This document shows, one piece after another, positions 30,878-33,035 of a stretch of 53,579 bases of DNA. How positions within the stretch are numbered: position 1 is the stretch's first letter; each line of letters starts with the position of its first letter. The DNA comes from Virgibacillus senegalensis (lineage in GTDB: Bacteria > Bacillota > Bacilli > Bacillales > Amphibacillaceae): assembly GCF_000821245.2 (NCBI RefSeq), contig NZ_LN611425.1:955282-1008860 (forward strand), in the 5' to 3' direction. The position numbers and the translations under genes were made by a program. The notes beneath the pieces are model-generated. The model ran no database searches and had not been told where the DNA came from. It saw nothing but the letters and a program-made list of their open reading frames with translations.

Positions 30878-31920
<1,043 letters not shown>

Positions 31921-32018
31921 CAGCGTCCACCTCTTCGCTTTATATTCGACCTCCATCCTATCATAAAAGAGAAGGAAGCGGAAATTTTCCTCTCTTTAAA
32001 ATTATGTGCTTAGGAAGG

Positions 32019-32047
32019 GTATATTTTTAATACAGCCGTCCATACTA
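32019..32047 (+). promoter_or_regulatory. Sigma-F/sigma-G-type promoter of the csfG-like RNA
   Basis: GTATA (32019-32023), 17-base spacer, CATACTA (32041-32047). CATACTA matches the sigma-G -10 and GTATA the -35 shared by the two forespore sigma factors. The hairpin RNA begins about seven bases downstream. Confidence 0.72.
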
Positions 32048-32053
32048 ACGTAG

Positions 32054-32207
32054 TGAAGCAGCTGCCTATCCTGACGGCTGCTTCAGAACACGGAGAAGGC
32101 TTACGTTTCCCCATAAGTTCTTCTTCCGGTTTCTCCTCTCCCTTTGCCTTTTTGTTTTCTGGAAAGAGAACAAAAAGGGCCTGCAGATTTATCTGCAGGC
32201 TTTTTTT
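32054..32207 (+). ncRNA. csfG: Candidate forespore small RNA CsfG
   Basis: No gene fits here, but the sequence folds into an ordered RNA. Hairpin 1 is GAAGCAGC/GCTGCTTC (32055-32062 with 32077-32084). A pyrimidine-rich, apparently single-stranded stretch follows (about 32107-32146). Hairpin 2 has a 14-bp stem with a GGAA tetraloop (32147-32160 with 32165-32178), one pair being G-U. A rho-independent terminator with a 9-bp stem (32179-32200) and seven T ends it. Position between ylbG and ylbH (rsmD) is that of csfG in B. subtilis, a forespore sRNA transcribed by sigma-F and sigma-G and conserved in spore formers. The promoter type agrees. Identity rests on position, promoter and architecture, not on alignment; the 5' end is approximate. 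Confidence 0.74.
32179..32207 (+). terminator. Terminator of the csfG-like RNA
   Basis: Perfect 9-bp stem GCCTGCAGA/TCTGCAGGC with TTTA loop and seven T after it. No protein gene precedes it on this strand, which is why it points to an RNA gene. Confidence 0.92.
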
Positions 32208-32254
32208 ATGGAAAGGCTTTTTGTCCTTTTTTGCCGGATTTTCTCTTCCTCTAT

Positions 32255-32282
32255 TTGCAAAGGCTTTGTCTCGTGCTAAAGT
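32255..32282 (+). promoter_or_regulatory. Candidate sigma-A promoter of the DUF7147-like gene
   Basis: -35 TTGCAA (32255-32260), 16-base spacer, -10 TAAAGT (32277-32282), just before the ribosome site AGAGGTGG. Confidence 0.5.
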
Positions 32283-32304
32283 ATGGTTGAAGAGAGGTGG
32301 ACAA

Positions 32305-32691
32305 ATGATTCAACGATTTGTAGAACTGGGGAATGGGTATGCAGATCTATATGAACTCTGTGAACTTGCAGAACACATGCCAGATAGGATAAGCCACTTT
32401 GTATCGCTCCGAACAGAGAAAAATGGCAAGAGGGTTACATCACCGGCGATCATCATGAACCCGACCAAACAGGGTGATTTTCAGCCGATTTATATTAGTT
32501 TGGAAGGTGTACCGGATTCAGAAAATGCTGCAAGTAAACGGTATGAATTGTTTAAAAAGTCAGCTGATAATAAGGGATTCGAAATCAAGTCACTAGTAGT
32601 AAAGCCCTCTACGGAGTTCCATGAAAAGGCATTGTACTTTCAATATTTAATCGGGATTTTTCAAATGAACCGGTTAATGAAAATTCATTAA
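32305..32691 (+). CDS. Conserved hypothetical protein (DUF7147-like)
   Basis: A 128-residue soluble protein starting MIQRFVELGNGYADLYELCELA. I recognise it only as the small conserved protein found beside ylbG in many Bacillaceae, sometimes annotated DUF7147. It is mixed alpha/beta by appearance, without membrane segments or catalytic motifs that I can name; the C-terminus (EKALYFQYLIGIFQMNRLM) looks helical. ATG 32305 follows GAGAGGTGG. An upstream extension of the frame to 32053 would run through the csfG-like RNA and its terminator and is not coding. Confidence 0.82.
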   Translation: MIQRFVELGNGYADLYELCELAEHMPDRISHFVSLRTEKNGKRVTSPAIIMNPTKQGDFQPIYISLEGVPDSENAASKRYELFKKSADNKGFEIKSLVVKPSTEFHEKALYFQYLIGIFQMNRLMKIH

Positions 32692-32760: not shown

Positions 32761-33035
32761 CAGATTCCCATTTTATAATCATATTCTTTCGCTTTGTCCA
32801 TTTTTGCATTTTCGAATTCCGTATTGACATAAGGCTTATAAGAAAAATCAACCTTCGAGATAAACGGTAATTCATTCAGTTTACTGGCTGTTTCTTCCGC
32901 TTCTAGTAAATCCACATAAACTACCGCATATTTTCGCTGCTTCGATACATATATCAAATGGCCGAATCGTTTAATTTGTTTTATGTTTTTCATATGTTGA
33001 AACCAAACAATCAGCCCCTGGCGTTTTGTTCGCAT
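32760..33035 (-). CDS. ylbG: DUF2129 family protein YlbG
   Basis: A 91-residue basic protein of the YlbG/UPF0298 (DUF2129) family: RQGLIVWFQHMKNIKQIKRFGHLIYVSKQRKYAVVYVD near the N-terminus, with a charged C-terminus. Function unknown. It follows ricF (ylbF) in the conserved ylb order. An intervening hairpin at 33119-33151 suggests that ylbF transcripts mostly stop before it. Confidence 0.9.
   Translation of the reverse strand: MRTKRQGLIVWFQHMKNIKQIKRFGHLIYVSKQRKYAVVYVDLLEAEETASKLNELPFISKVDFSYKPYVNTEFENAKMDKAKEYDYKMGI

Follow-up and report, generated by a model that had tools for sequence, protein, structure and literature searches.

The founding paper on the small RNA CsfG of Bacillus subtilis is reportedly that of Marchais et al. 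2011. As described in papers citing that work, B. subtilis CsfG is encoded at the ylbG-ylbH site, is controlled by sigma-F and sigma-G, is confined to genomes with sigG and has CU-rich conserved stretches in loops and between helices; forespore expression of csfG has been reported for this species. The RNA has also been found in RNA-seq data from B. licheniformis (PMC3871023). In a northern analysis the strand of the 'ylbH leader' was silent, while the reverse strand was detected, identified as CsfG and described as bound by Hfq (PMC3574147). Three C-rich regions are reported for CsfG, with a mention of oxidative stress (PMC4409812), and such regions are common to CsfG and the C-rich Bacillus sRNAs RoxS/RsaE and FsrA (PMC8216469, PMC4409812). 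The promoters of these sRNAs differ from that of CsfG as reported. The passages on CsfG in papers from 2021 and 2022 give it no known mRNA target (PMC8216469, PMC9147052), and the latter describes disruption of sRNAs including CsfG as causing no obvious sporulation defect. CsfG and KrrA are said elsewhere to regulate sporulation, germination and competence mRNAs, in a passage that names no CsfG target (PMC12456014), and YlbG has been suggested as a possible participant in CsfG activity (PMC3814617).

The same site is present in the window, meaning the whole 53,579-nt stretch of Virgibacillus senegalensis DNA that was analysed. By comparison with related loci, the plus-strand segment 32019-32207 is csfG, with the predicted features of an sRNA under sigma-F/sigma-G control. 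It is a further, securely identified copy of a known sRNA, whose mechanism we infer. On one side lie RsmD/YlbH, CoaD and YlbJ, and on the other DUF7147, YlbG/DUF2129, YlbF, YlbE and YlbD. The csfG gene is thus placed between YlbG (32763-33035, minus strand) and rsmD (ylbH; 31363-31956, minus strand), which encodes 16S rRNA (guanine(966)-N(2))-methyltransferase and is divergent from csfG. As the neighbours are RsmD/YlbH and YlbG, the site is that of B. subtilis csfG with one extra gene, the DUF7147 gene (32305-32691, plus strand), which lies 3' of csfG and is separate from it. The nearest protein gene upstream, rsmD, points away on the minus strand, in line with the earlier claim that no protein gene lies upstream on the csfG strand. 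A 212-aa ORF with a GTG start in the mechanical ORF list (32053-32691, plus strand) crosses csfG and continues in the frame of the DUF7147 gene, which in reality probably starts at the ATG at 32305.

A cmscan of the window gave one match above the gathering cut-off, RF00516, with 98.8 bits against a cut-off of 50, at 32088-32209 on the minus strand. Among 18 matches in a relaxed Rfam scan of 31957-32304, RF00516 alone passes its cut-off; the RsaE model (RF01820) matches the csfG strand weakly (23.6 bits, cut-off 79). The original prediction that a covariance model would match here was borne out, with two departures: neither Rfam scan returned a family named csfG, and the matching family is the 'ylbH leader' on the other strand. 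The RF00516 match covers the same bases as csfG in antisense and omits its 5' hairpin. The genome carries a single copy. The CU-rich conserved core and the intrinsic terminator of CsfG sRNA are both present, and the identification as the local csfG is upheld by the position between YlbG and YlbH/RsmD, the RF00516 match, the conserved promoter and the co-occurrence with sigma-G. The core is 35 nt long (32108-32142, plus strand), reads TCCCCATAAGTTCTTCTTCCGGTTTCTCCTCTCCC here and departs at two positions from the core used as search pattern. It ends in the 13-mer TTTCTCCTCTCCC (32130-32142).

Conservation was assessed in 120 Bacilli loci, namely the own-genome locus (L001) and sets of 29, 30 and 60 from RF00516 searches, with 20 relaxed-search loci left out. 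All 120 loci contain TTTCTCCTCTCCC and 118 contain CCGGTTTCTCCTCTCCC exactly, in a sample that favours a conserved core because the loci were picked as RF00516 matches. Of 398 genomes of the class, 230 have an RF00516 match at E <= 0.001, 193 of them above the cut-off. Sigma-G, used as a proxy for spore formation, was scored in the same genomes with TIGR02850, for which 238 genomes exceed the model's own cut-off; the best E-values form two groups separated by a gap from 1e-44 to 1e-96, and 267 genomes were called sigG-positive and 131 negative. The csfG match is found in 230 of the 267 genomes with sigG and in none of the 131 without it (Fisher 1.6e-71, not a proper probability because the genomes are related). 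Together with the 54 genomes without sigG outside the class described below, all of which lack the core, this agrees with csfG occurring only in endospore formers, with the qualification that some sigG genomes lack csfG.

There are 37 sigG genomes without an RF00516 match, G015, G079 and G171 among them. A relaxed search gave weak matches in 18 of these at E <= 0.1, none above the cut-off, and this threshold also flags four control genomes outside Bacilli. A pattern search over 17 nt, with up to two mismatches allowed, found TTTCTCCTCTCCC intact in nine of the 37 (G118, G125, G179, G209, G245, G307, G333, G360 and G387), eight of these with a GTATR box or TCCCC upstream. In a tenth genome (G010) a weak match lies beside rsmD and ylbG. 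The 24 genomes of family f18 have a divergent sigG (E 1e-97 to 1e-120), and no csfG was detected in any of them. The weak RF00516 matches in this family (11 loci, best 29.1 bits in G176) were taken as chance, since neither the 13-mer nor rsmD within 1.5 kb accompanies them. Two csfG matches or sites occur in some genomes (L191/L210, L252, L376/L377; G106, G164, G185); the second site of L252 appears degenerate, and L376/L377 are near contig ends.

A promoter of the sigma-F/sigma-G type precedes csfG. The -35 box GTATA (32019-32023) is followed, 14 nt past the box, by the -10 region GTCCATACTA (32038-32047), and GTATA-N17-CATACTA at 32019-32047 on the plus strand is the sole exact match in the window. 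The pattern is weak by itself: with up to two mismatches allowed, the window contains 5 matches where 2.78 are expected, and as many occur in 10 of 100 shuffles. An initial, crude promoter score was likewise poor at telling real upstream regions from shuffled ones. Position is more telling, as 111 of the 120 loci have GTATA at 90-125 nt 5' of the core 13-mer, compared with 2, 2, 4 and 0 of 120 for four control windows placed further 5'. When this interval is widened slightly, 114 loci show a GTATR box, at 14-15 nt from the -10 decamer in 110 of them. The commonest letters of the 114 decamers give GGNNATAATA; position 1 is G in 111 of them, position 5 is A in 113 and position 9 is T in 111. The promoter named in the original prediction is thus exact in the window and conserved in position. 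By analogy with B. subtilis, csfG would be expressed in the forespore of V. senegalensis.

The predicted transcript, with a start inferred from the -10 box, spans 32053-32208 (about 155 nt, plus strand). Its fold has a free energy of -67.6 kcal/mol (z = -8.05; 0 of 200 shuffles equally stable) and comprises four stems, at 32054-32085, 32086-32132, 32147-32178 and 32179-32200, and not the three successive hairpins proposed earlier. The 5' hairpin (32054-32085) lies beyond the Rfam match and varies in sequence while its stem stays: among the 120 loci it has 118 distinct sequences and z < -1.5 against shuffles in 113. The second hairpin (32086-32132) holds a TTTCCCC stretch in its loop. Covariation support for its stem is slight, with double changes in 3 of 13 pairs and a covariation term of 0.02 in the 47 of the 120 loci that were aligned (49 prepared, L029 and L058 dropped). 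The pyrimidine-rich stretch 32107-32146 had been proposed as a free interaction surface; this applies to 32133-32146, the only part left unpaired between stems, and not to the remainder up to 32132, which forms the second stem's loop and right arm. A third hairpin (32147-32178) leads to the intrinsic terminator (32179-32207), where the expected seven T were found: a 9-bp stem in the hairpin 32179-32200 is followed by T7 at 32201-32207. The terminator scan reports the hairpin for the minus strand only, and the plus-strand stem and T7 were taken directly from the sequence. The minus side of the hairpin is also T-rich (CCTTTTTGTT), and the terminator may act in both directions.

Linkage to rsmD was read by tblastn with the RsmD of the window. 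The gene adjoins csfG in 119 of the 120 Bacilli loci, 115 divergent and 4 with csfG inverted, and in 50 of 55 loci outside the class, 49 divergent and 1 inverted. Among the 81 named sites listed below, 70 have rsmD no more than 2 kb away, and some of the records end early. With 1.5 kb flanks and E <= 1e-4, DUF7147 was found beside csfG in at least 13 and YlbG in at least 28 of the 120 loci, both lower bounds.

Outside Bacilli the core was followed with the 35-mer TCCCCATAAGCTCTTCCTCCGGTTTCTCCTCTCCC, allowing up to three mismatches, in a phylum sample of 398 genomes, 16 of them in the class. It occurs in 113 of these genomes, and the reversed control in none. The sigG threshold was set between E 8e-54 and 2e-67, a range with a few borderline genomes; on this basis the core is present in 102 of 328 sigG genomes outside the class and in 0 of 54 others; in the other 226 sigG genomes it may have been lost or have diverged beyond three mismatches. 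The exact 17-mer was found in at least 116 stretches of named records, 80 of which are listed, and the 80 titles all read as Bacillota, including Dethiobacter, Syntrophomonadaceae and Thermoanaerobacterales MAGs. Among the 17-mer sites listed, TCCCC is just upstream in 76 of 81 and a GTATR box is in the window used for the Bacilli set in 62 of 81; at least one of them, L215, appears to match by chance.

The 55 loci outside the class (19 and 36) differ from those of Bacilli in structure. The Bacilli left arm was found in none of them by a search pattern that finds it in 94 of the 120 Bacilli loci. Another left arm, GAAGAGC..., which pairs with GCTCTTC of the core, is present in 21, and neither arm was recognised in the remaining 34, several of which have the promoter directly 5' of the core. 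Of 54 outside loci, 36 have a GTATR box 35-115 nt upstream, compared with 1, 0 and 3 of 54 for control windows. RF00516 at its cut-off finds one (L384) of 20 outside-Bacilli loci given to it. As the core is kept while the left arm is changed or unrecognised outside Bacilli, the core is kept more as sequence than as helix, and since the hairpin changes and the core does not, the core is probably selected as a linear sequence. The smallest natural form of csfG appears to be the core with its terminator.

With moderate confidence, csfG is most likely a trans-acting sRNA of about 155 nt with its own sigma-F/sigma-G promoter and terminator, in which the CU-rich core pairs with purine-rich RNA. Non-coding csfG would be transcribed from the plus strand and ended at the terminator, and the core (32108-32142) would be displayed in part by hairpin 2, in its loop and right arm, and in part as a single strand. 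The core could then base-pair with purine-rich RNA, for example at mRNA ribosome-binding sites, as has been reported for the C-rich Bacillus sRNA RoxS. The comparison of loci suggests that the hairpins serve to present the core and that selection keeps the core itself.

Target prediction, as proposed originally, yielded no target. Complements of the 13-mer with up to two mismatches number 165 in the own genome against 191 for the reversed control, which is no enrichment. Thirty of the 165 sites were read (L141-L170); nine have an ORF of at least 30 aa starting within about 14 nt, and none was recognised by eye as a sporulation gene. The reverse complement of the core reads GGAGG-N8-ATG, a pattern shown by 3-14% of shuffles. 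Start-like complements number 22 in the own genome against 11 for the reversed control, an excess that start regions alone would give. ORF starts of any length fit the start-like complement only at three mismatches. The ORFs concerned presumably are serS and genes for a VOC protein, an ABC permease, YtxH and YvrJ. The core as antisense to one start region was rejected. A generic action against Shine-Dalgarno sequences was rejected as well: the core pairs better with the start regions predicted for 54 window ORFs than inside genes (-18.15 against -13.43 kcal/mol), and 39 of 100 shuffled cores show a preference as large, so that the preference is explained by composition. The specific pairing with Shine-Dalgarno sequences proposed for the pyrimidine stretch was therefore not upheld.

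A seed whose mRNA targets drift would not usually stay invariant for as long as this core has, which hints that its partner is itself invariant. In one alternative the core is the binding site of a protein, either Hfq or an RNA-binding protein of sporulation, and csfG titrates this protein or acts as a scaffold. The linear CU sequence is invariant although the hairpins change, and CsfG co-immunoprecipitates with Hfq in B. subtilis (PMC3574147); the same source reports CsfG as only modestly reduced without Hfq, and a near-invariant site of 35 nt is long for one protein, which leaves this an unlikely explanation.

The other partner considered is the ribosome: CUUCCUCCGGUUU of the core would pair with AAACCGGAGGAAG of 16S rRNA, with UCCCCA:UGGGGA adjacent, and silence or store forespore 30S subunits. 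The consensus core has a 13-nt perfect complement in the own 16S rRNA. The duplex has an energy of -36.2 against -29.9 (sd 2.2) for dinucleotide shuffles, with 0 of 150 as good and a longest shuffle run of 12, and none of 60 mononucleotide shuffles matches the core on the rrn operon. The adjoining rsmD product, moreover, modifies 16S rRNA. Strong as the pairing is against shuffles, the covariation check failed. The 16S segment is changed with csfG unchanged in two genomes (G726, G433), and csfG is changed with 16S unchanged in two others (G331, G076). The segment was matched in 8 of 50 genomes queried and in 0 of 14 of family f86, for which the prediction had been set beforehand; a 14-pair run, G-U allowed, is kept in 3 of the 8, and runs of 8-10 in the other 5. 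The most invariant csfG bases, too, lie mostly outside the duplex. This pairing is accordingly judged very doubtful. The wider idea that csfG is an ancient ribosome-directed RNA, its core binding an invariant 16S stretch or a ribosome-associated factor to shut down forespore translation, is just as speculative. It would also explain the lasting linkage to rsmD, and if true csfG would not be an ordinary mRNA-pairing sRNA, and its core would have persisted from Bacilli to distant clostridial-type lineages through the rebuilding of the hairpins.

The filing of RF00516, by which the conserved element would be a minus-strand, cis-regulatory leader of ylbH (rsmD), is hardly credible. The minus strand folds well too (z = -4.95), fold energy does not discriminate between the strands (57 of 120 loci favour the csfG strand, p = 0.36), rsmD follows on the leader strand in 115 of 119 Bacilli loci and a start-like GGAAGAAGAACTTATG is present on the minus strand, but the signals of promoter (compared for the csfG strand), T-run and orientation favour the csfG strand. 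A T-run of at least 5 is found at the csfG 3' end in 108 of 120 loci against 5 of 120 on the antisense 3' side, and 4 of 119 Bacilli loci and 1 of 50 others have csfG in inverted orientation to rsmD. The published northern gave signal from the csfG strand only (PMC3574147), and in B. amyloliquefaciens the 'ylbH leader' is reported as not detected by dRNA-seq (PMC4634765). A putative small antisense ORF begins MGKRK in 72 of the 108 loci with CCCCAT, a motif absent from 12 of 120. Its length varies from 3 to 86 codons (median 27), and among 86 loci with the left-arm motif it is in frame in 81 and out of frame in 5. The alignment has gaps of 1, 2 and 4 nt in this region, and the ORF was set aside, because conserved non-coding sequence would give such a pattern.

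To the CsfG literature, as compared through citing papers, the present analysis adds the form that csfG takes outside Bacilli, its linkage to rsmD, the gap in family f18 and the core as a probable linear sequence signal. The record of RF00516 merits a move to the opposite strand and widening. The comparison narrows the target question: the core and not the hairpins is constant, and rsmD is its neighbour across the phylum sample. The constant core, the minimum of core and terminator and the rsmD linkage thus supply the search for a target with a minimal construct and well-defined point mutations.
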